Source: a virus
Strand: one strand, 5' to 3'
DNA: 24,290 nucleotides
Virus record (IMG/VR): IMGVR_UViG_3300020020_000156
Coordinates: 1 to 24,290 of that record
Part shown: positions 1,842-24,258 of the stretch, piece by piece
Layout of the letters: each line of letters begins with the position of its first letter
How positions within the stretch are numbered: position 1 is the first letter of the stretch
Made by a program: the position numbers and the translations under genes
The notes under the pieces: model-generated
Database searches by the model: none
Told to the model about the DNA's origin: nothing
The model's input: the letters and a program-made list of their open reading frames with translations, nothing else

Positions 1842-3353
1842 GTGCGCAGCGTTGACCTCCTCGCCGCGCGCGCCGCGATGACCCCAGCGAGGGCCAGCGG
1901 CGCGGCTCTCTTCGCTGCCCTCATGGCGCAAGATGAAAGGCTCGTCGCCGCGGGCTTCCCGCCGATGACCGAATGGTGGGTGGAGCAGCTGCGGCGCTTC
2001 TACCTATCAGGAAAGCGCAGGTTCGTGGCGAGGGTCGGGCGGAAGGGAACGAAGAGCTCGACCATGTGCCGCGTGGCCGTCAATGAGATGCTTCGCGGCG
2101 ATCACTTGCTCCGCCCGGGTGACCTTGGGCTCTTCATGTTCGTATCGGAAAACATGGAGGAGGCGCAGGGGCGTATCTTTACGATGAAGAGCATCCTCGA
2201 TGCGCTCGATGTCGGCTACGCGCCGATGAACCGCGACACCAGACTTGCGGGCAAACAGGTCATCTTCGGCGTGCGCGCCGGACGCATTGGCGCCGTGTCC
2301 GGGCCCGTGCTCATCGGCCTTGTCGATGACGAAGTGGCCAAGTGGAAGAACGATACGACTGGCGTCAACCCGGCCACGGAGATTCTGAGCTCTGTCCGCC
2401 CCGCGATGATTACCCAGCCGAACGCGCATGAGTTCATGATCTCCTCGCCGTGGTCGACGCTCGATGCCCACTACAACGCCATGGAGGAAGGCGAGACCGA
2501 GCAGCAAACGGTGGCCGAGGCGCCGACGTGGATCGCCAACCCGACGGTCACTGAGGAGGCCACGCGCAAGGAAGAGAAGGACCAGCAAACGTGGGAGCGG
2601 GAATACAAGGCCGTGCCGATGGGCTCGACGGAGGTCCACTTCTTCGACCATCGCGCCATCGATGCGTGCTTTGCCTCGGACATCGTCATGCCCGTCAAAG
2701 CCGAGGCGGGCGCCGTCGTCACCGCCGGCGGAGACCTCGCATTCGTGCGGGACACTGCCGCCATGGCGGTGTGCCATCGGTACGGCGCTTGGAACGACGA
2801 CGCCTCGCGGTATCTCCTCGCCGACGTGCTCGAAGAGAAGCCAGCGTCAGGCTTCCCCCTGCTCCCAGGCAACGTGATCGGAGCGTTCGCGGCGAAGCTC
2901 GGCGAGCACAAGGTCTCCTACCTGATGGCCGATGGGCACTACCGGATGAGCGCCATCGAGCACCTCGAGCGGCATGGCCTCCACTACGCCGACGCGCCCG
3001 AGGGGCAGATTGGCAAGGCCGATACATACGTCCGGATGAGGGTCATCCTGCACGGCGGGCGCTTCCGGTACTGCTCTCCTGACCTACAACGGCAGATGAA
3101 AGAGGTCACCAGCAAGCCCACGCCGGGCGGTGGCCTCTCGATAAGCTCGCCGCACAAGGCAGGCGGGGGCCACGGCGACGTGCTCTCAGCGGTCGTCCTG
3201 GCGCTCTGGCAGCAGACTGGGCACGAAGTGCTCGCCCCCGAGCCGGTGCCTGGCTCGGCGGAGTGGCACAGGCGCGAGCAGATGGCAGCGAAGGAAGCGG
3301 CAATGCGCATGGCCAGCAAGAGGGATCGCAAGGCGCCGCAGTATCCGCATTGA
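1842..3353 (+). CDS. terL: terminase large subunit (ATPase-nuclease)
   Basis: This 503-aa protein is the DNA-packaging motor. In the ATPase domain, VGRKGTKS (about 65-72) is the Walker A loop, LIGLVDDEVAKW (157-168) is Walker B with catalytic D-D-E, and MISSPWS (199-205) is the coupling motif III. The nuclease domain has the RNase H-like acidic residues D298 (GGDLAFVRD), D364 (YLMADGHY) and D446 (GGGHGDVLSAVVLALW). Length is normal for the family. Walker A is unusual: the residue before the conserved Lys is Thr, not Gly. The GTG at 1842 is the likely start; an ATG at 1878 has no better SD. It works with the portal gene 430 bases downstream and probably with the HTH protein at 218. Confidence 0.93.
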   Translation: MRSVDLLAARAAMTPARASGAALFAALMAQDERLVAAGFPPMTEWWVEQLRRFYLSGKRRFVARVGRKGTKSSTMCRVAVNEMLRGDHLLRPGDLGLFMFVSENMEEAQGRIFTMKSILDALDVGYAPMNRDTRLAGKQVIFGVRAGRIGAVSGPVLIGLVDDEVAKWKNDTTGVNPATEILSSVRPAMITQPNAHEFMISSPWSTLDAHYNAMEEGETEQQTVAEAPTWIANPTVTEEATRKEEKDQQTWEREYKAVPMGSTEVHFFDHRAIDACFASDIVMPVKAEAGAVVTAGGDLAFVRDTAAMAVCHRYGAWNDDASRYLLADVLEEKPASGFPLLPGNVIGAFAAKLGEHKVSYLMADGHYRMSAIEHLERHGLHYADAPEGQIGKADTYVRMRVILHGGRFRYCSPDLQRQMKEVTSKPTPGGGLSISSPHKAGGGHGDVLSAVVLALWQQTGHEVLAPEPVPGSAEWHRREQMAAKEAAMRMASKRDRKAPQYPH

Positions 3354-3623: not shown

Positions 3624-3787
3624 CAGTCGCCCGACTGCTCCACGTGAAGCCCATGGCCTATTGGGCCTGCGTCGGTTTCGGGCACCTCTACTTCGTCAAT
3701 TGCATTCGCGGCCTGCTCGACCTGGACCCCATCTCAGTCGGCAGGCCGCTCGGTCTAACCTTTCGAGGGAAGTCCATGAGTGGCTAG
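3620..3787 (+). CDS. small protein of unknown function, 55 aa
   Basis: The GTG at 3620 overlaps the previous stop (GTGA), and the frame ends with TAG at 3785-3787, overlapping the portal start by 8 bases. The product has an aromatic, mildly hydrophobic centre (MAYWACVGFGHLYFVNC) and a short basic C-terminus. The centre is too polar to call a membrane helix with confidence. An upstream in-frame start at 3602 would add six residues, but the GTGA junction argues for 3620. The family is not recognised. Confidence 0.5.
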   Translation: MTVARLLHVKPMAYWACVGFGHLYFVNCIRGLLDLDPISVGRPLGLTFRGKSMSG

Positions 3788-5744
3788 CGACGCGCAGCTT
3801 TGGTGGCAGGTCAAAGAGGACGCCGCGCGCGCCGCTGCGGTCGTTGCCACCGTTGACGCCATCGAACGCGACCAGGGCGAGCGACGAGCCCGCGCGCTCC
3901 GCAACCTTCAGATCTACGAGGGGCGCAAGCTCGAGGGCCTATTCCCTTCGGCGTATTTCACCTCGGTCGACATGGACGGGGAGGCCTGCGACAAGCGCCG
4001 GCTACGGCTGGCCAGGTCGCTGGTCAATACGGCATTCGCCAAAGTGGCCGGCAAGCAAAAGCCCAAGGCGCAGTTCATGACGACGGACGCCGACTGGACG
4101 ACGAAGCGCCGTGCCAAGCGCATGGAGCGGGTCGTCGAGGCGGTATGGTCGCAGCGGCAGGGCAATTGCCGTGATGGGTGGGAGGTTGCGCGTAATGCCT
4201 TCCGCGACTGCGAGATTGGGGACATGGGGGTCCTGAAGTTTTGGACCGACCTGCAGGAGCGGAAGATTGTGATCGACCGCGTCCTGTGGTGGGAGCTTCT
4301 CACCGACCCGCAGGAATCCCGCTATGGGATGCCGCTCAACTGGTTTCACGTCTACGCCTACGATCGCTACAAGCTCGCCGCTCGTTTCCCCAACGACAAG
4401 GAAGCCATCATGGCGGCGCCAGGTCTCAACGAAGAGACGACGGGGGCCAACGCCTACGGCTTCGGTAACGAGATTGCCCGCATGGTCAAGGTCCGCGAGG
4501 CGTGGCGGCTCGCCGTCTCGAAGGACGACCCGGGCGTGCACTCGATCATCGTCGGCGACGCGGACCTGGCCAAGGGCGAGGAGTACACGCGCACCTTCCC
4601 TCCCTTCGAGACCATTAGCTGGGAGCCATGGGTCATGGGGCTCGGCGGCACGTCGCTCGTGGACAACGTCGCGGACATCGACGACGAGCTGAATGCCGCG
4701 GTGGAGCGTCGAAGCCAAGCCGAGAAGCTCTGCTCCAACGGAGTCACGTTCTACCGGGAGAGCAGCGTCGACTCGCGCGACCTTGCGGATAACCGCATTG
4801 GCATCTCCGTGATGGTGAAGCAGGGGATGGAATTTCCGCAGTACAACGCCCCTGAGACCACCTCGCAAGGCTCCGTCCAGTGGGCCGGGCAGGTCCAGCA
4901 ATGGGGGCACGACATGTCTGGCGTGTCTTCAATGGCCGCAACGGGGCAGACCGACCAGGGCGTCACCGCCGGCATCGCCATGCGGACCCAAGAGAACATC
5001 TCCTCGGAGCGCTTTGCCATCCCATGGCAGACCTTCGAGAACATGGTTGCGATTGGGGGGGCACGTCAAATCGTGGCCTGTATGCGCGAGCTCGCCGAGG
5101 ATAACCCAGGCGCATCCGTGAAGTGGCCGGGCGGCTCGTTCCTTCGGGAGATCCGGTGGAGCGACGCGGACCTAGAGGACGACCAATACCAGGTCCAGGT
5201 GGCAGCGGTGTCGGGCCTGGTGAACACGCCGGCAGACCGCCTCTCGCTCGCCTCCGAGCTCTACGACCGCGGCATCCTGTCTCAAGACTCGTTCCTGCGC
5301 GTCATCCAAGCGAAGGACATCGACGCCGAGCTCGAGCGGACGAACACGCAATACCAGCTCATCGACCGGTACATTGAAGACTGGCTCGAGGCCACGCCGG
5401 AGACGGAAGAGGACGGCACGTTCCGCTACCGCGCGCCCATCAAGTGGATGCAGCTGCCCGAGGCGATCGTGCAGGTCGGCCGGGCCTACCTCGCAGCGGA
5501 CCTCGACAACGCGCCCGAGTGGAACCTCGACTTCTTCCTTCGGTGGATGGGCGACGCCGACGGCAAGATTCAAGAGATTGAAGGGCAACGCAAGATGGCC
5601 GAGGAAGCCATGCGCGCCAAGCAACAGCAACAGCAGCAAGCCCAGCAACAGCAAGCCGCGCCGACTCCTGGCGCTGGTCCGCCACAAGCCCAGCCGCGGC
5701 CACCGGCCATGGCGATGCAACCGAACGGAGCACCCGTCCAATGA
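3780..5744 (+). CDS. portal protein
   Basis: The 654-aa product forms the dodecameric ring at the capsid vertex through which DNA enters and leaves. The start is GTG 3780, behind GAGGGAAG at about 3765-3772. The length, place between large terminase and scaffold, and the block FPPFETISWEPWVMGLGG followed by SLVDNVADIDDELNAAVERR (residues about 273-312) are typical of podovirus portals, where this region leads into the stem and crown. The C-terminus from residue 614 is Gln-rich (runs of six and four Gln) then Pro/Ala-rich. It probably forms a flexible or coiled barrel into the capsid. The stop overlaps the next gene (ATGA). Confidence 0.88.
   Translation: MASDAQLWWQVKEDAARAAAVVATVDAIERDQGERRARALRNLQIYEGRKLEGLFPSAYFTSVDMDGEACDKRRLRLARSLVNTAFAKVAGKQKPKAQFMTTDADWTTKRRAKRMERVVEAVWSQRQGNCRDGWEVARNAFRDCEIGDMGVLKFWTDLQERKIVIDRVLWWELLTDPQESRYGMPLNWFHVYAYDRYKLAARFPNDKEAIMAAPGLNEETTGANAYGFGNEIARMVKVREAWRLAVSKDDPGVHSIIVGDADLAKGEEYTRTFPPFETISWEPWVMGLGGTSLVDNVADIDDELNAAVERRSQAEKLCSNGVTFYRESSVDSRDLADNRIGISVMVKQGMEFPQYNAPETTSQGSVQWAGQVQQWGHDMSGVSSMAATGQTDQGVTAGIAMRTQENISSERFAIPWQTFENMVAIGGARQIVACMRELAEDNPGASVKWPGGSFLREIRWSDADLEDDQYQVQVAAVSGLVNTPADRLSLASELYDRGILSQDSFLRVIQAKDIDAELERTNTQYQLIDRYIEDWLEATPETEEDGTFRYRAPIKWMQLPEAIVQVGRAYLAADLDNAPEWNLDFFLRWMGDADGKIQEIEGQRKMAEEAMRAKQQQQQQAQQQQAAPTPGAGPPQAQPRPPAMAMQPNGAPVQ
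5622..5654 (+). repeat. CAA/CAG polyglutamine tract in the portal gene
   Basis: Ten CAA or CAG codons interrupted by one GCC encode six Gln, Ala, four Gln near the portal C-terminus. Such tracts are prone to length change by slippage. The mix of CAA and CAG suggests selection for glutamine rather than recent expansion. Confidence 0.75.
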
Positions 5745-5944
5745 GCGAGACCGACCAGAAAGAGCACATCATGCAGTTCTTCTCGTTCGCGCATCTTCCG
5801 CCTGCAATGCAGGAAGTCTCGCGACCGTTCTGCGAGATGGCGACGAAGCTGCTCGAGCTGCCGCGCAACGCCGAGAGAACCGTGGCGCTGCGCAAACTAC
5901 TCGAATCGAAGGACGCGGCGGTGCGCGCGTTCATCGCCAAGTGA
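5741..5944 (+). CDS. Acb2/Tad1-like hairpin protein (possible cyclic-nucleotide sponge)
   Basis: The 67-aa product starts at ATG 5741 in an ATGA overlap, with GGAG at 5727-5730. It reads as a two-helix hairpin: LPPAMQEVSRPFCEMATKLL, a turn at LPRNAER, then TVALRKLLESKDAAVRAFIAK. This order of an F..LA-type first helix, an LP turn with E-R/K, a KL.E second helix and an A..A-I-A-R/K end follows my memory of small phage proteins in the Acb2/Tad1 hairpin family. Acb2 and Tad1 bind the nucleotide signals of CBASS and Thoeris defence and so shield the phage. The match is by eye, the ligand-binding residues cannot be confirmed, and it could be another helical virion or accessory protein. It sits between portal and scaffold genes. 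Confidence 0.6.
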   Translation: MSETDQKEHIMQFFSFAHLPPAMQEVSRPFCEMATKLLELPRNAERTVALRKLLESKDAAVRAFIAK

Positions 5945-5951
5945 GGCCACA

Positions 5952-6284
5952 ATGAACCACCGCAGCGAAGAGCAGCTGGCAGCAATCCACCGTTTCGAGA
6001 CGGACTACTTCCCCACGCTCGAGAAGGGCATCGTCTCCAAAGACATTACCCAGGCCATGCGCCAAGACTGGGCCATCCTCCTGGCTCCGCCGGAGATCCC
6101 GCTCGCGGTCTCGGTGACCCCGGATAAGGGGCCGCACAACTTCCAACATGCGGCGGAGTTCCCCATCGACGTCGAGGAAGAAGCGAAGCTCGAGGCCGCA
6201 GTCGAGCTCGTCGGCATCCGCGAGCCGAAGAGAAGCGACCCGCCGCCCACGCCCAAAGTGGGGAAGGGCCGGCGCAATGCGTAG
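5952..6284 (+). CDS. hypothetical protein, 110 aa
   Basis: The ATG at 5952 follows TGAGG at 5942-5946, seven bases after the previous stop. The product has a helical N-terminus (SEEQLAAIHRFETDYFPTLEKG), a middle with beta character (IPLAVSVTPDKGP), an acidic stretch (DVEEEAKLEAAVEL) and a basic, Pro-rich tail (KRSDPPPTPKVGKGRRNA). It overlaps the next gene by 8 bases. No family is recognised. It lies between portal and scaffold, where small accessory genes are common. Confidence 0.65.
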   Translation: MNHRSEEQLAAIHRFETDYFPTLEKGIVSKDITQAMRQDWAILLAPPEIPLAVSVTPDKGPHNFQHAAEFPIDVEEEAKLEAAVELVGIREPKRSDPPPTPKVGKGRRNA

Positions 6285-6543
6285 CTTCGAGCCACGCACA
6301 ACGCTCGGTGAGCCGGTCAAGGCGCTCACGCGCGGCGAAGAGCCCGCCGAGTCTCCCCGCATGCAGATGGGCGACGATGTGCCCAGCGCCGTGCGCGAGG
6401 ACCGCGAGTTTCAGCTGCTCTTCAGGGAGAGCCAGAAGATCAAGAACTCGAGGCGCCCCGCTGATCAGCGGCACTTCGCCAACCTGCTGAACCAGATGCG
6501 CGTGCGCTGGGAAGAGCTCACCGGAGAATCCAATGGCAGCTGA
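6277..6543 (+). CDS. hypothetical protein, 88 aa
   Basis: The frame is open from 6148, but the upstream part is a Ser/Arg-rich shadow of the previous gene. The ATG at 6277, preceded by GGGAAGGG at about 6261-6268, is the likely start. The product is polar with no hydrophobic segment: an N-terminal half rich in Glu/Pro/Arg and a helical C-terminal half (DREFQLLFRESQKIKNSRRP; LLNQMRVRWEELTGES). It overlaps the previous and next genes by 8 and 11 bases. The family is not recognised. Confidence 0.65.
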   Translation: MRSFEPRTTLGEPVKALTRGEEPAESPRMQMGDDVPSAVREDREFQLLFRESQKIKNSRRPADQRHFANLLNQMRVRWEELTGESNGS

Positions 6544-7717
6544 AGTCACCCCGCCCCCGATGCCGACGGAGCCCATCTCCGTCGAAGAAGCCCTCGAGCA
6601 AGCCAGGCTCGACGTTGCCGACCAGATCGAGGCCGAGGACGCCGACGAGGCGACGGCCGCCGCGGAGGTCAAGAAGGCCAACGCCGAGCGTGGGCCGGAC
6701 GGTAAGTTCAAGGCGGCCGAGGCCAAGGCGGAAGCCGCCAAGGAGCCCAAGGCGAAGCCAGAGAAGCCGGAGGAACCCGCAAAGGCCAAGCCGAAAGCGG
6801 AGGCCGAGGAGCCCGCCGAAGACCGCAGCGCCGGGGGGCTCGCCCGTGCGCGCAAGATGTTCGCCAAGGGCGACATTCAGGACGCGGTCAAGCTCGCCTT
6901 CGGAGTCGACGCCGAGGACCTGAAGCTGACTTCCAAGCAGTGGGACGCGGTCAAGGAGAAGATCGCAACCGGCAAGGAAGCGGCCCGAGAGACAGAGGCG
7001 CGTGGGCAGCAGATGCTGAACCAGGCGCAGCAGATCATTCAGCAGTTCGTCCCGCTGGCGCAGGCGAAGGTTGCCTACGAGCAGGGCGATTACGAGACGT
7101 TCGTCAGGCTCGCCACGGGCGACGACTTCACCACCTTTCAGCGCAAGCTCATCGCGCAGGTAGCGCAGACGAAAGACCCAGCCGCCGACGCGCGCATTGC
7201 GCGGCTCGAGCAGGAGCTTGCGCGGCGCGACCAGGAAAACGTGCGCCTCCAACAGATGACGGCGCAGCAGCGGCAGACGCAGGCGGTCGAGCAGCACATC
7301 GCCTCCATTGCATCCGAGCTGAAGGACTGCGGCGATGCCCGATTCGAGGCAGCCGCGGGCAAGAAGATATTCCTCGACAAGGTGCTCGAGATTCAGCGCG
7401 AGCACTGGGACAAGTACACCAAGCAGACGCTCCCACCCGCAGAGGCGGCCGAGCTCGCATGGGAAGAACTCTACGGCGACCTTCTCGAGGTTCGCACCGA
7501 GCGCGGCGGTGCCCGCGCTACACCCGAGCATCGCGGGCAAAACGGTGCTTCACCCGGGCGCGGCGGGCCAAACGGCGCACGAGTGCAGGCGAAAGCCGGC
7601 ACGAACCTCCGACATTCACAGGCCGCAGAGGCAGCGCCGGAAGACGACCTAGAAGGGGACGAGCTGTTGCAACACTTCATACGCAAGGCCCAGTCCCAGC
7701 AGAGGGCTACCGGATAG
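6533..7717 (+). CDS. capsid scaffolding protein
   Basis: The 394-aa product is highly charged and helical, directly before the coat gene, as expected for a scaffold that templates procapsid assembly and then leaves. The first 105 residues are an Ala/Glu/Lys/Pro-rich low-complexity region containing GPDGKF, a motif often seen in phage scaffold-type proteins. A coiled coil is likely around residues 219-262 (ARIARLEQELARRDQENVRL). The C-terminus ends in an acidic patch then a short basic helix (DELLQHFIRKAQSQQRATG), like the coat-binding end of the P22 scaffold. No protease domain is seen. The ATG at 6533 follows GGAGAA at 6523-6528. Confidence 0.75.
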   Translation: MAAEVTPPPMPTEPISVEEALEQARLDVADQIEAEDADEATAAAEVKKANAERGPDGKFKAAEAKAEAAKEPKAKPEKPEEPAKAKPKAEAEEPAEDRSAGGLARARKMFAKGDIQDAVKLAFGVDAEDLKLTSKQWDAVKEKIATGKEAARETEARGQQMLNQAQQIIQQFVPLAQAKVAYEQGDYETFVRLATGDDFTTFQRKLIAQVAQTKDPAADARIARLEQELARRDQENVRLQQMTAQQRQTQAVEQHIASIASELKDCGDARFEAAAGKKIFLDKVLEIQREHWDKYTKQTLPPAEAAELAWEELYGDLLEVRTERGGARATPEHRGQNGASPGRGGPNGARVQAKAGTNLRHSQAAEAAPEDDLEGDELLQHFIRKAQSQQRATG

Positions 7718-7748: not shown

Positions 7749-9014
7749 ATGGCTTCCACACTCACGACGTTCGATCCGTTTCTCAAGCGATATTACAACC
7801 CCGGACAAGTTGCCGCTCTCGTCAACAAGGATCGCCCCTTCCTCGCCAAGGTCAAAAAGACCATGGGGAGCGGCATTCTTTGGGTAACGCCCGTCATCTT
7901 CGCCAACCCGCAAGGCCTCTCGGCTGACCTGGTCAACGCGCAGCTCGCGTCCAACCAGGCCGGCGCAGGCGGCAACCTTCAGGGCAAGCAGTGGCAGTCG
8001 ACTTGGGGCGACTACACAGGCGCCGTCTCGATTGGAGACAAGGTCATCGCCGCGTCCCGCGACAACGTGGGGGCGTTCTTCGAAAACCAGAAGGCGGAGA
8101 TTGACCGGCTCTACGAGCAGTTTGCCGACATCATGGGCCTCTATGCCATCGGCAACAGCGGCCACTCGGTCACGCCGAGCGGCTTCACCATCTCGTCGGG
8201 CGTCTGTACGCTCGTCGTGCCGGACGACATCGTCAACATCCAAGTGGGGATGATCCTCCAGGCCTCCGCGGCCGATGGATCTGCCACCTCGGACACGTTG
8301 ATCGACCCGTCGCTCGGGTACGTCATTGCCGTCAACGAGAATACCGGTGTTTTCACGGTCTCGGCGACGTCGGGCGGAGCGGCGGGCACGCCGACCAACT
8401 GGACCGGCACCATGTTCGCCTTCCGCAATGGCGACTTCGGCGGCTCGGGCGCGACGCGCATCATGCTCGGCCTCTCGGCCTGGGTTCCGGCGGCTGATCC
8501 GTCGGCGACCTCGTACGAGGGTGTCGTGCGAACGGCTGGGATCACTGCTCTGTCGGGCGTTCGCCTGACGGCTGCGGAGATTGCCGGCGTTGGCATTGAG
8601 CAGCGCATCAAGAAACTCGTCACCCGCATGGTGGGACGCGCCAAGGGCCCCGGGCCCAGCGACGTGTTCCTCAATCCGGAGAAGTGGCAGGCGCTCGCCG
8701 ACTCGCTCGAGTCACGCGGGACTCGGCCGCTCGACGGGAAGATCGGAACCTTCAATTACCAGAAGGTCCAGCTCGCGGCGGGCGGCAAGATGGTCGACAT
8801 CTGGGCAGATCGCTTCTGTCCTCTTGGGCGCGCCTTCGCCGTCAACTTCGACTACATCGAGATGAAGACGCTGTCGGGCTTTCCCGCTGTCGTCAATGGT
8901 GACGGTCTAACGATGCTCCGTAAGACGACATCGAACGACTACGAACACCGGCTCGTCTCTTACCCGGCATTCCAGGTGAAAGCGCCTGGGTACCAGGGAA
9001 CGACGGCGGTGTAA
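7749..9014 (+). CDS. major capsid (coat) protein
   Basis: The 421-aa product begins MASTLTTFDPFLKRYYNPGQ. Its size, position after the scaffold and composition fit an HK97-fold coat protein. The helix-rich middle (FFENQKAEIDRLYEQFADIMGLYA, given here as two parts ending LYEQFADIMG) matches the spine helix region. Residues about 140-235 form a beta-rich insertion (SGVCTLVVPDDIVNIQVGMI; TGVFTVSATSGG) like an inserted domain of P22-type coats. The block SDVFLNPEKWQALADSLESR (about 301-320) and the C-terminal strands complete the P-domain. No N-terminal delta domain or protease site is evident. A weak SD (GGGTGA) precedes ATG 7749, after a 31-base gap with no recognisable site. The GroES-like protein may assist its folding. 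Confidence 0.85.
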   Translation: MASTLTTFDPFLKRYYNPGQVAALVNKDRPFLAKVKKTMGSGILWVTPVIFANPQGLSADLVNAQLASNQAGAGGNLQGKQWQSTWGDYTGAVSIGDKVIAASRDNVGAFFENQKAEIDRLYEQFADIMGLYAIGNSGHSVTPSGFTISSGVCTLVVPDDIVNIQVGMILQASAADGSATSDTLIDPSLGYVIAVNENTGVFTVSATSGGAAGTPTNWTGTMFAFRNGDFGGSGATRIMLGLSAWVPAADPSATSYEGVVRTAGITALSGVRLTAAEIAGVGIEQRIKKLVTRMVGRAKGPGPSDVFLNPEKWQALADSLESRGTRPLDGKIGTFNYQKVQLAAGGKMVDIWADRFCPLGRAFAVNFDYIEMKTLSGFPAVVNGDGLTMLRKTTSNDYEHRLVSYPAFQVKAPGYQGTTAV

Positions 9015-9640: not shown

Positions 9641-10411
9641 GTGTCCTCTGCCGTCACATTGGGCGCGCTCCGGGCTCGTGTTCGCAAAGAAGCGGATGCG
9701 GGTCCGGACACGACCACGGGGCGGCACACCAACGCTGAGATCAACAGCATGATCAACCGCTCTTGGCAGGACCTCCGCTCGTTCGTCTGCGCGAGCGCCG
9801 GAGGCCTTGCCGAGGCGTATCTGAAGGCGACGACGCCCGCGGCGATGACCGTCGGCGTTCTGTCGGGCTACTCGTTCGGCACCGTCCCGCTCCCCGCCGA
9901 TTGTGTCGAGGTGCACGGCATCGATGTCGTCATTCAGGGCAATGAGCGGGTGTCGCTCGAGCCGGTCAGCTGGAAGGACCGCAACCTCTACCACGACGTA
10001 TGGGGCAACGGCACCGGCATCCCCATCGGCTTCAGCATCTACAACATCGGCGTCGAAGCAACGACGACGGTGACGGCGGGGGTGATTGCCATCCTGCCAG
10101 CGCCCGACCGCGCCTACGTCTACTCGATCTGGTACGTCCCCAAGTGGACCGACCTGACCGACGATAGCCACGTCTTTGACGGCGTCGCCGGCTGGGAAAA
10201 CTGGGTTGTCTGGGACTGCGTCGTCAAGCTCGCGGCGGCCGACAACGACATGCAGAACGTGGCGCAGATCGCCATGACCGAGCGCGCCGCAGCGCAGGAC
10301 AGGATTGCGCAGGCCGCGGCGAAGCTTCAGCGCGTGGCCCCGGTGCGGCGCATCGACATGGCCGGGCGCGACCGAGGGCATCGGATGTGGGGAATGCGGA
10401 GGTTCCCGTGA
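9641..10411 (+). CDS. head-tail adaptor (connector) protein
   Basis: The 256-aa product starts at GTG 9641, with GGGCGGGGG about 8 bases upstream. It has an N-terminal helical part with a polar face (ALRARVRKEADAGPDTTTG; AEINSMINRSWQDLRSFVCA) and a beta middle (MTVGVLSGYSFGTVPLPADC). It then shows APDRAYVYSIWYVPKWTDLT and DGVAGWENWVVWDCVVKLAA, followed by a long Ala/Gln helix and an Arg-rich C-terminus. The motifs P-D-R-A-Y-x-Y-x-x-W-Y-x-P and D-G-x-x-G-W-E are typical of podovirus adaptor proteins that bind the portal and carry the nozzle, such as SU10-type adaptors. The position between coat and nozzle supports this. Its stop overlaps the next start (GTGA). Confidence 0.75.
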   Translation: MSSAVTLGALRARVRKEADAGPDTTTGRHTNAEINSMINRSWQDLRSFVCASAGGLAEAYLKATTPAAMTVGVLSGYSFGTVPLPADCVEVHGIDVVIQGNERVSLEPVSWKDRNLYHDVWGNGTGIPIGFSIYNIGVEATTTVTAGVIAILPAPDRAYVYSIWYVPKWTDLTDDSHVFDGVAGWENWVVWDCVVKLAAADNDMQNVAQIAMTERAAAQDRIAQAAAKLQRVAPVRRIDMAGRDRGHRMWGMRRFP

Positions 10412-13988: not shown

Positions 13989-14907
13989 ATGGCGATCACG
14001 ACTTACACCGCGAGCCCCGCAGTCATGGCGCCGACGACGCTCGGCGCCTCCCCCTACAGGACGCAGGAGGAAGAGGACGCGGCCTGGAATGCGGCGCATC
14101 CGACCAGCGGGGGCGCCATCGCGGCCAACACGAGCGGCGCGACGGCCCCGTTCTTCCCCGACCCCTACCAGACGCAATCGCTCATCATCGATCCGCCGCA
14201 CCCGGAGGACCCGCCGCCGTACCAGGGGCCGCCCGCGCCGGAAGATCCGCCGCCGCTCCCGCCGTCGACGCCAATTCCTAGGCCGACAGGCCCCGTGTAC
14301 CCGAACGTCCCTGTGCCGCAGCCGCCGTGGCAGCCGCCCCCCGCCCCGCCGATCGGGCCGGGTGGGATCCCCATCATCCCAACAGGCACCGGCACTGCCG
14401 GCAACCCGGCTTACCCAGTGGGGCCGCCTGGCGCGTCGCCGACGGGCGACACCAACTACGGCGTGACCGGGCTTTCCCAAGTCCGCAGCCAAACCCCTGG
14501 CTTCGGAAACGTCCCCGTTGCCGACTACACGACGACGGCGCCGGTCTATTACGGAAACAACCAATCGGCAGCTACCAGCGCTGCGCAGCAGGCCTACGGA
14601 ATGGCCGAGCTCTCTGCGCAGCAGCAGCAGCAGATGGCCCTCAACAACTACGGGCTATCGGGTGGCTATTACGGCGCAGCGCAGCAGCAGTACGGCGCGC
14701 AGCAAGCGAGCATGGCCAATCAGGCCACCGCGCTCGGCGGGCTTCAGGGCATGTACCAGATGCTCGACGCCAACGCGGCGGCGGGGCAGGGCAACGCGAA
14801 CGTCGCTTCGGATATCTACGGCTACAACGCCATTCAACAGCTTCAGCAGGCGGCCCAGTCACGGCAAGGCGTTCTCAATCAGGTTCAGAATCTCGGCACC
14901 GTCGGAA
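13989..14907 (+). CDS. Gln-rich repeat protein, N-terminal part before the frame break
   Basis: The ATG at 13989 directly follows the nozzle stop, with GGAGAG just upstream. Frame 0 is proline-rich at residues 65-145 (PPHPEDPPPYQGPPAPEDPP and later PPPLPP), so likely extended. It then becomes Gln/Ala/Tyr/Gly-rich (AELSAQQQQQMALNNYGLSG) up to QVQNLGTVG, where a repeat motif begins. After about position 14907 this frame turns into Arg/Pro-rich sequence unlike the rest of the protein, while the matching continuation is in frame +1. This entry is therefore the upstream half of one gene that continues to 17418. The same frame stays open to 17102 only because GC-rich repeats lack stops. Start and composition are seen; one-gene status is inferred. 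Confidence 0.7.
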
Positions 14908-15350
14908 GCGCTCGCGGCGCAGATGGCGGGCAATCAGTACTCCGTCTATCGCGACCAGGGCTATACCGGCGCGGGACTCGATCGCCAGGGCATGGCCGCG
15001 CAGCTTCAGAGCCTTGGAGCTGTCGGGCAGCAGGCGAACGCCTACACGACGAGCATGGCCGGCCACGCCGACATGGTCGGCGACCGGTACGGGCAGAGCG
15101 CGCAGACCGCTATGGGCCAGATGCCGGCCGACCGGCAGACGCAGCTCACGCAGCTTCAGAACCTCGGCCAGGTCGGCCAGGGGGCGATGGGCTACACGTC
15201 GGGCCAGGCGACGCAGGCCAACAACCTCGCCAACTTCTACGGCCAGGCCGGCGCGCAGGCGCTCGGCAACCTGCCGGCGGACCGACTCGTCCAGCTTCAG
15301 CAGTTGCAGAACCTCGGAACCGCTGGGCAAGGTGCGGTCGGCTTCGGCGA
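14880..15350 (+). repeat. 50-codon repeat of the Q-x-Q-N-L-G-x-x-G unit
   Basis: The unit QxQ(N/S)LGxxG recurs at 14880, 15001, 15151 and 15301. The last three are spaced exactly 150 bases (50 codons). The flanking block (M/L)PADR also recurs at 15121 and 15271, again 150 bases apart. The first to second copy distance is 121 bases, that is 40 codons plus one base, which is where the reading frame changes. Confidence 0.8.
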
Positions 15351-17418
15351 GCAGGGCCAGCAATACGCCACGCAACAGGCGGCGGGGGCGAACCAGACGG
15401 GGCTGCAAGCCCTCGCGCTCGCCATGCAGGGCGGGGCCGGCGCCGGGCTGATTGGGCAGCAGGGCCTGAACTACGCCATGCAGCAGGCGGCAGGGGCGCA
15501 GGGCGCGGCGGCTCCGTACGCACAGGCGGGCGTCAACGCGCTCGGCCAGTCCGACGCGGACCGCACGGCGACGCAGCAGGCGCTCGCGCGGATGCAAGGC
15601 TTCCTCGATGCTGGCCCGGGGGCGAGCCAGGCGGAGGCGCTGCTGAAGGCGCAGAGCGACTCGACGATGGCGCAAAACGTGGCGCTCGCGCGGTCGGGCC
15701 GCGGCGCTGGAGACAACGTGCTCGCGCAGCGGCAGGCGATGTTCCAAAACGCCGCGCAGCAGCAGAAGCTCGGTCAGGACATGTCCGCCCTGCGCGCGAA
15801 CGAGGCGGACAAGTGGCGCGGGATCCAGCAGCAGGGACTCGGCGCGATCCAGCAGGGCCAGGCGGCGCTCCGCACGCAGGACCTCGGCGCGGCGCAGAAC
15901 GCCTCGCAGGCGCAGCTCGGTCTGTCCGGGCTCGCGCAGCAGTACGCCAATCTCGGGCTCGGCAACCAAGCGACCCTCTCGGGCCAGCAGCAGGCGTACC
16001 TCGCTTCGGGGCTCGGCGCGCAGGGGCAACAGGCCGGAGTGGCGCAGCAGTACGGCGCGCTCGGCCAGCAGTACGGCGCGACAGGGCTCGGCACCATGGC
16101 GCAGCTCGCCGGCATTCAGCAGCAAGGCGTCAGCGAGCTCAGCGCGCGCGACCTCCAGGCCTCGCAGCAGGCGGCGCAGGCGCAGCTCGGCCAAAACCAA
16201 CTTGCCCAGCAGTATTCCGGACTCGGGCTCAACACCGTGGGCCAGCTCGCCGGGCTCCAACAGCAGGGCATCACGGGCCTTCAGCAAGGGTCGCTCCAGC
16301 AGGCCCAGCAGGGGCAACAGGCGCAGCTCGGTCAGAACCAGCTCGCACAGGGGTACATCGGCCAGGGCTTCGACATGACGAAGAGCCTCGCCGGTCTGCA
16401 AGGGCAGACCCTCGGGCAGATGAGCGCGCAGGACCTGGCCATGATGCAGCAGGGCCAAACCGGTCAGCTCGCGCAAAACCAGCTTGCCCAAGGGTACACG
16501 GGGCAGGGGCTTGGCTCGATCGGACAGCTCGCGGGCTATCAGACGAACCTCATGGGCGGGCTCCAGGGCCAAGACATCTCGGCCATGCAGGCCCTCGGGC
16601 AGCTCCAGGGAGTGCAGGGCCAGCTCGGCCAGCAATATGCCGGGCTCCGCGCAGACACCGGCACGAACGTCGCTGCGCAGACCATGCAGGGCATGCAGAG
16701 CATCGGCGCGGAGAACGCGCAGCTCTACGCGCAGCAGCTCGCGCAGCAAAACGCCTACGTGCAGATGGCCCAACAGGGGCTTGGCGCGGCGCAGGCGCAG
16801 CGCTCCGAGGGCCAGCAGCTCTCCAACAACATTCTCAATCAACAGCTCAACGCGCAGCTGCAACAGCAGTCGCTCAATGCGCAGCTTCAACAGCAGACGA
16901 ACCTCGCCAACCTCGCGGCCCTTCACAACAAGGACATCAACGCGGCGCAGATCTCCTCAGCGCAGAACATTGCCGCGCAGCAGGCGGCGTCGACGAACCA
17001 GGCGGCCGTCATCGGCGCAACAGGCTCAATCCTTGGCGCGATGGGCGGGCTCGCGTCCGACATCCGCGCGAAGACCGACATCAAACCGGCAACGTTCGAT
17101 GAGTTTCTGGCAGGCGGCGCGGGCGGCAAGCCGCTCGGACAACCGGCGATCGACTTCAGGCCCGCACAGGGCTACTCGTACGACTACAAGGATCCGAACG
17201 CACCGGGGGCGGCGCCAGGGCGGCAGTTTGGCCCGATGGCGCAGGACCTCGAGAAGACCGCCGCGGGCGCGTTTGCTGTGGGCAATGGCCCGGGCGGACA
17301 GAAGTTCGTTGACCCTGCTCGCCTCACGATGGCCAACACGGCCGGGTTGAGCGAGCAGCAGCGCAAGATCGAAGAGATGCAGGCCATGCTCGCCAAGCTC
17401 AAGGGGAGGGCGGCCTGA
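14908..17418 (+). CDS. Gln-rich repeat protein, C-terminal part with S74-type chaperone-like domain
   Basis: In frame +1 relative to the N-terminal part, the product reads LAAQMAGNQYSVYRDQGYTG then long Gln/Ala/Gly/Leu helices of about 700 residues containing 50-residue and 47-residue repeats. The last 120 residues form a separate domain: SDIRAKTDIKPATFDEF at 17056, YSYDYKDP near 17170, RQFGPMAQDLEKT near 17220, then VDPARLTMAN and a final coiled coil. That order (SD-x-R-x-K-T-D-I, Y-x-Y, G-x-M-A-Q-D/E) is the intramolecular chaperone (peptidase S74) domain found at the ends of fibres and some large virion proteins. There it aids trimer folding and may cut itself off. The frame is open from 14518; the first ATG past the break is 14923. 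Long helices suggest an ejection or fibre protein. Confidence 0.68.
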   Translation, partial: ALAAQMAGNQYSVYRDQGYTGAGLDRQGMAAQLQSLGAVGQQANAYTTSMAGHADMVGDRYGQSAQTAMGQMPADRQTQLTQLQNLGQVGQGAMGYTSGQATQANNLANFYGQAGAQALGNLPADRLVQLQQLQNLGTAGQGAVGFGEQGQQYATQQAAGANQTGLQALALAMQGGAGAGLIGQQGLNYAMQQAAGAQGAAAPYAQAGVNALGQSDADRTATQQALARMQGFLDAGPGASQAEALLKAQSDSTMAQNVALARSGRGAGDNVLAQRQAMFQNAAQQQKLGQDMSALRANEADKWRGIQQQGLGAIQQGQAALRTQDLGAAQNASQAQLGLSGLAQQYANLGLGNQATLSGQQQAYLASGLGAQGQQAGVAQQYGALGQQYGATGLGTMAQLAGIQQQGVSELSARDLQASQQAAQAQLGQNQLAQQYSGLGLNTVGQLAGLQQQGITGLQQGSLQQAQQGQQAQLGQNQLAQGYIGQGFDMTKSLAGLQGQTLGQMSAQDLAMMQQGQTGQLAQNQLAQGYTGQGLGSIGQLAGYQTNLMGGLQGQDISAMQALGQLQGVQGQLGQQYAGLRADTGTNVAAQTMQGMQSIGAENAQLYAQQLAQQNAYVQMAQQGLGAAQAQRSEGQQLSNNILNQQLNAQLQQQSLNAQLQQQTNLANLAALHNKDINAAQISSAQNIAAQQAASTNQAAVIGATGSILGAMGGLASDIRAKTDIKPATFDEFLAGGAGGKPLGQPAIDFRPAQGYSYDYKDPNAPGAAPGRQFGPMAQDLEKTAAGAFAVGNGPGGQKFVDPARLTMANTAGLSEQQRKIEEMQAMLAKLKGRAA
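16039..16743 (+). repeat. 141-bp (47-codon) tandem repeats in the Gln-rich protein
   Basis: Tyrosine codons at 16072, 16213, 16354, 16495 and 16636 are spaced exactly 141 bases. Three central units (16180, 16321, 16462) begin with the near-identical (A/G)QL(G/A)QNQLAQ(Q/G)Y. The outer units are more diverged. No base is inserted or lost across five units, so the reading frame has been held. Confidence 0.85.
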
Positions 17419-23835: not shown

Positions 23836-24258
23836 ATGGCAAACGATTACGGAGTTCAGGCTATTGTCGCGGTGAAGGTAGCGGACGGCACAGACGTGGC
23901 CACGGCGGGATCAGGTGCCGTGCTGTTCTGCGACTCTGACGACCGGCCCACTACCGCCATTCGAGCGAAGACTGCCGACGGCGCCATGCGCGACGTTATC
24001 CAGCAGAGCGGCGCGGCGACGCTCGTGGCGGGCACCACCGCGCTCCTGCCGGCGACGGTCACGGCATCGAGCCGGATCCTTCTGTCGCTGAAGACGCCCG
24101 ACACGAAGACCGACACGACAGAGTACGCGGCGCTCGGGACTGACCGCGTCGTCGGAATCGGCGGCGCAGGCGGCGGATTCAAGATAACCGCTCTCGTCGC
24201 GGCGGGGACCATCAACGTCGCCGACGTGAGCGTTATCGATTGGGTCGTCTTCAACTGA
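23836..24258 (+). CDS. small structural (head-fibre or tail-fibre-like) protein
   Basis: The 140-aa product reads as an N-terminal beta part (YGVQAIVAVKVADGTDVATA) followed by ATLVAGTTALLPATVTASSR, ILLSLKTPD, RVVGIGGAGGGFKITALVAA and DVSVIDWVVFN. The order LVAGTxxLxxxxVTAxSRIxL, then a Gly-rich loop with x-F-x-I-T, then a final W-V/L strand is a recurring phage beta module. I know it from fibre tips and capsid-surface proteins. No catalytic residues are expected. It is the last complete gene of the window and follows the lectin cluster, so a surface or receptor-binding role is likely but inferred. Confidence 0.65.
   Translation: MANDYGVQAIVAVKVADGTDVATAGSGAVLFCDSDDRPTTAIRAKTADGAMRDVIQQSGAATLVAGTTALLPATVTASSRILLSLKTPDTKTDTTEYAALGTDRVVGIGGAGGGFKITALVAAGTINVADVSVIDWVVFN

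Follow-up and report, generated by a model that had tools for sequence, protein, structure and literature searches.

The window analysed here, a viral contig of 24,290 bases (IMGVR_UViG_3300020020_000156), encodes directly behind its portal gene a helical hairpin protein of 67 amino acids (positions 5741–5944, plus strand). Is this small protein a sponge for nucleotide messengers of bacterial immunity, carried among genes for structural proteins? Such a function had been proposed in a preliminary description, on the basis of a resemblance to the hairpin of Acb2 and Tad1. Acb2 assembles as a homohexamer and traps cyclic di- and trinucleotides, and Tad1 binds gcADPR. The hairpin protein of the window is documented by its open reading frame with a coding signal, by membership of a family, by remote homology to PF24729 (Acb2_Tad1_hairpin) and by a predicted model.

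The open reading frame 5741–5944 is a real gene, because its G+C content at codon positions 1, 2 and 3 (0.60/0.40/0.82) follows the pattern of the portal gene and because dN is low relative to dS in comparison with its nearest relative. This relative, from locus L002, is 81% identical to the window protein. Over 59 codons, dN is 0.086 and dS is 1.22 (dN/dS about 0.07), with 22 synonymous versus 7 non-synonymous codon differences. The translated product is MSETDQKEHIMQFFSFAHLPPAMQEVSRPFCEMATKLLELPRNAERTVALRKLLESKDAAVRAFIAK, in which the segments quoted in the preliminary description are all found. The ATGA overlap that had been pointed out is also present: the stop codon of the portal gene (3780–5744) and the ATG of the hairpin gene share this sequence at 5741–5744 on the plus strand. 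This overlap suggests that the hairpin gene may be translationally coupled to the portal gene.

Judged from the SU10-type portal and adaptor matches and from the flanking terminase and head genes, this part of the window represents the structural module of a SU10-like phage. All of its genes considered here lie on the plus strand. The terminase large subunit (1842–3353; phrog_2, E 8e-12) is followed by the SU10-like portal protein of 654 amino acids (3780–5744), whose match with PF23899 (SU10_portal, E 2e-6, 27 bits) is just below the cut-off of 30. Downstream of the hairpin gene come a 110-amino acid open reading frame without Pfam or PHROG match (5952–6284), a charged protein of 394 amino acids without significant profile match, placed as scaffold from its position alone (6533–7717), the major head protein (7749–9014; phrog_14242, E 8e-6) and an SU10-like adaptor protein (9641–10411; PF24175, E 7e-9). 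The hairpin gene had been placed between portal and scaffold. It is indeed located behind the portal gene, but the scaffold-like gene is not adjacent, as the 110-amino acid frame intervenes. Its location in a late structural operon is likewise real, though relatives also occur among early or metabolic genes. A scan for promoters and terminators found none near the hairpin gene on its own strand. This, together with the position in the structural block, suggests late expression that would be coupled to the portal gene. Tight coupling to the portal gene would be surprising for a sponge, because only a few copies of the portal are required and a sponge acts by its amount. This point speaks against a sponge, since such coupling would fit a low-copy protein better.

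Several other features of the window deserve mention. A GroES/Cpn10-like co-chaperonin (1162–1584; PF00166, E 5e-6) is encoded upstream of the terminase gene, and a 98-amino acid phage protein with a C2H2-type zinc finger at 927–1223 (PF13912, E 8e-6). A long protein at 13989–17418 is seemingly split over two overlapping frames. The first, from 13989, is sensible to about 14,900, then the second, that of 14518–17418, which ends with a Peptidase_S74 domain, takes over. This may be an assembly indel or a frameshift, and the switch point has no obvious slippery run. Near the end of the contig, 23836–24258 encodes a protein matching PF24146 (E 4e-6), the C-terminal domain of a family of K1 capsule lyases.

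The preliminary description had proposed a profile search for the Acb2/Tad1 hairpin family, and for the window protein itself this search came back empty. No match with PF24729, nor with any other Pfam profile, was obtained at E≤1, no chain was matched among PDB sequences, PADLOC gave no match and NCBIfam no usable one. The negative result with PF24729 is meaningful, because the same copy of Pfam recovers T4 Vs.4/Acb2 with this profile at 7e-20. The designed helical repeats 6xss and 5cwp gave weak matches, which we read as matches of composition. A pairwise BLAST between the window protein and a protein of PF24729 gave nothing. PF24729 is reached by only one of 69 close relatives (E 0.07) and by divergent members from Actinobacteria (E 3.5e-4, 4.8e-4 and 6.8e-3), of which the best has 21.1 bits, all being below the curated cut-off of 27 bits. 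In 38 phage records carrying window-type hairpins no PF24729 protein was found, a sample too small to speak of mutual exclusion. Since defining features were checked and are lacking, the window protein should be classed neither with Acb2 or Tad1 nor among the curated members of PF24729. In comparison with Pfam, PDB and PADLOC, only PHROGs recognises it, as a clear member of phrog_1761 (7.5e-24) and phrog_5120 (6.8e-15), two families that carry no functional annotation.

The family is large. Relatives were found by tblastn in 311 phage records, with Vibrio, Erwinia, Acinetobacter, Brevibacterium, Gordonia and many others as hosts, and by pattern scan in at least 557 viral contigs and at 77 loci in bacterial genomes. 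The window-type hairpin is also present on 23 plasmid records. None of the phage records listed carries an anti-defence name, and all annotate the gene as hypothetical protein. The family consensus is (I)xxFFxYxHLPxxLQxVSxPFxxLAxxxxxxLPRNPERTVALRKLLEAKDAAVRA. Helix 2 is almost invariant, a conservation partly produced in alignments A1 and A6 by the pattern search, which favours its residues. Checked on 15 phage relatives found by tblastn, the sequence RKLLE(A/S)KDxxVR is kept in all except that of Ruegeria phage V17 (L332). In some relatives the hairpin is part of a longer protein. In L014 (3794–4186) and L041 (3797–4183) it is fused C-terminally to a domain of about 60 residues, an arrangement reminiscent of Tad1; a PDB search with the N-terminal part gave no match. 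It stands behind a P-loop-like segment (GAVGSGKS) in the jumbo phage pEa_SNUABM_23 of Erwinia (L335, 2255–2707), and behind zinc-ribbon-like segments in L329 (765–1133) and L025 (3620–4195). The Microlunatus locus L155 has two copies of the hairpin gene (2178–2390 and 6478–6687), about 4 kb apart.

Evidence for a kinship with Acb2 and Tad1 comes from profiles. The profile of the window family (A2) was compared with profiles of bona fide PF24729 relatives, which had been collected by scanning genomes and viruses. A3 represents the stand-alone FxYHxP family (from L234, PF24729 E 9e-21), A4 the Acb2 type, with T4 Vs.4 and PaP2 p26 among its members, and A5 another group of hairpins (L171-type). 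A2 matches A3 with a profile-profile probability of 92–93% (E 7e-7 to 3e-7) and a score of 36; reversing A3 gives 12, and none of 100 column shuffles exceeds 17. A3 in turn matches A4 (95%) and A5 (98.7%), and in the PDB it finds 9ptq, "Acb2 homolog 43" (3.5e-6), Tad1 chains (3e-4) and T4 Vs.4 (0.03). Reciprocal searches over real open reading frames agree. With A3 over 17,827 frames from window-family loci, window-type hairpins are 24 of the 24 matches at E≤0.01 and 146 of the 156 at E≤10, the window protein itself scoring only E 3.1; with A2 over 2,654 frames, the other family accounts for 36/36 and 80/88 at the same two thresholds. Compared directly, A2 is not significant against A4 (probability 0.3%) or A5, so the window family is a sister family linked through A3. 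The detectable homology with PF24729 is strongest across residues 32–56, and the end of helix 2 differs. By these profile comparisons, the window family is homologous to PF24729 in a wide sense, remotely.

The helical hairpin that had been claimed is predicted with high confidence. From the window protein together with its relatives, AlphaFold2 builds a monomer model with a mean pLDDT of 91 and helices at residues 9–14, 21–37 and 44–65. In Acb2 a short helix is combined with two long antiparallel ones (PMC10419184), and the predicted model has this layout of one short plus two long helices. In a viral structure library, the named matches below the own family are mostly Acb2/Tad1 hairpin proteins, found at ranks 6, 10, 14, 15 and 23; the best of them reaches a TM of 0.69 (E 0.022, probability 1.00). 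In a fold search of the PDB, neither Acb2 nor Tad1 was among the matches listed for the window model, two-helix hairpins giving little power in such a search. The A3 family model, used as a control, found T4 Vs.4 with cGAMP first and Tad1 fourth. The predicted fold is thus supportive of the kinship, which it backs but does not decide.

What the protein might bind was considered from the known pocket of T4 Acb2, for which it is reported that binding is lost in the mutant Y8A, with F82 stacked on the ligand (PMC12657218), and lowered by T68M (PMC12657230). These contacts were mapped to the window protein through chained alignments, F82 being the least certain since the alignment is poor at the end of helix 2. 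Y8 corresponds to F16, a position that 86 of 90 relatives fill with Y, F, H or W. T68 corresponds to R51, an arginine in 87 of the 90. At I65, the counterpart of F82, the residue is I, L or V throughout. Only one of the three contacts, the aromatic residue at the Y8 position, is therefore kept in kind. The resemblance with Acb2 and Tad1 from which the question arose thus stands as a remote kinship, by profile-profile and reciprocal tests, but not as a direct match with Acb2, and the T68 and F82 contacts are changed. Since a near-invariant set of charged residues peculiar to the family, H18, R51, K52, E55, K57, D58 and R62, lies on or around helix 2, the ligand is probably held in a manner not quite that of T4 Acb2. 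Of these residues, R51, E55, D58 and R62 have helical spacing and lie on one side of the predicted helix. We infer a kept binding site with an altered ligand or geometry. On balance we read the family as a divergent sister group to the Acb2/Tad1 hairpin domain, acting probably as a nucleotide-messenger sponge in anti-defence.

The partial conservation of the T4 Acb2 pocket could also mean that an anti-defence protein of the same fold binds a host protein instead of a nucleotide, and the accessory-gene behaviour described below would suit such a function. We consider this unlikely. The near-invariant charged residues fit a phosphate-bearing ligand, and the characterised relatives named in the literature consulted are all sponges.

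A second alternative, which seems to us quite improbable, is that the portal cistron also encodes a virion or head-assembly protein, i.e. a small portal-associated or head-completion factor. The overlap with the portal gene and the location in the structural block agree with this, as do the relatives of Gordonia and Acinetobacter phages, found in capsid blocks, and the closest relative, which in L002 also follows a portal gene. However, that portal, ahead of an 81% identical hairpin, is unrelated in sequence to the portal of the window. Moreover, 155 of the 157 relatives' loci have no other gene in common with the window, only two having any. The neighbouring frames of relatives match 105 PHROG families, each by at most 3 of 148 frames, including RecT, endolysin, portal, terminase, DNA methyltransferase and Lar-like restriction alleviation. 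The relative is found within nucleotide metabolism genes in Ruegeria phages and in the right arm of a mycobacteriophage; in other named phages it adjoins a T4-type topoisomerase, lies between the terminase subunits or is close to a putative endolysin. A conserved position in the structural module, as would be expected of a head-assembly protein, is thus not seen, as relatives are also located in nucleotide-metabolism, early or lysis regions. The preliminary description had held that homologues occurring only as virion proteins would speak against a sponge; those found here are not confined to virion modules. Because the neighbours are scattered among relatives and the L002 portal is unrelated, the gene, as far as gene order tells, behaves as mobile cargo would and not as a head part would.

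Least likely of all, a small DNA- or RNA-binding regulator would be consistent with the basic residues on helix 2 and with the zinc-ribbon-like fusions in L025 and L329, but Pfam, PHROGs and NCBIfam give no DNA-binding profile, the homology points to a messenger-binding hairpin, and L252, of bona fide PF24729 type, has a similar zinc-ribbon-like fusion.

If the family is a nucleotide-messenger sponge, its small helical protomers may assemble into a compact oligomer, as those of Acb2 do. Pockets between the protomers would bind and hold a phosphate-bearing nucleotide messenger, and with the messenger held, the host abortive-infection effector would stay off. The mobile cargo gene would have landed behind the portal gene, and its product would be made with the structural proteins. 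More tentatively, and possible rather than likely, the family could be a very widespread sponge branch with its own near-invariant charged pocket that catches a messenger unlike those of Acb2 and Tad1 and, in this phage, is delivered late with the structural proteins. This would point to a defence signal that no sponge is so far known to capture. The gene is carried by more than 300 sequenced phages from very different hosts, and the records listed annotate it as hypothetical protein. Should these encode sponges, a large anti-defence family would have been overlooked by standard profiles, the changed pocket opens the question of messenger choice, and sponge genes would also ride in the structural block, a region less often searched for anti-defence genes.

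Compared with known systems, the window protein is related to the C-terminal hairpin of Tad1, reached via A3, but the N-terminal beta domain of Tad1 is absent from its 67 amino acids, predicted as helices only. With Acb2 (T4 Vs.4 and PaP2 p26) it shares one short and two long helices and the aromatic residue at the Y8 position. It differs from Acb2 in having a shorter loop, in lacking T68 and F82, and in the lack of a direct profile match. The T4 and PaP2 genes also lie outside the structural block, T4 vs.4 clustering with tk, regB and denV, and PaP2 p26 being located on the strand of the replication genes. The FxYHxP type of PF24729 (A3), with PDB 9ptq "Acb2 homolog 43", differs from the window family in that the latter has R for T before K, has KDAAVRA in place of VMWANAA and is below the Pfam cut-off. 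The two have in common the length, the layout of helices, the aromatic residue before helix 1 and the register PxxxE(R/K)(S/T)xAL(T/R)K at the hairpin turn.
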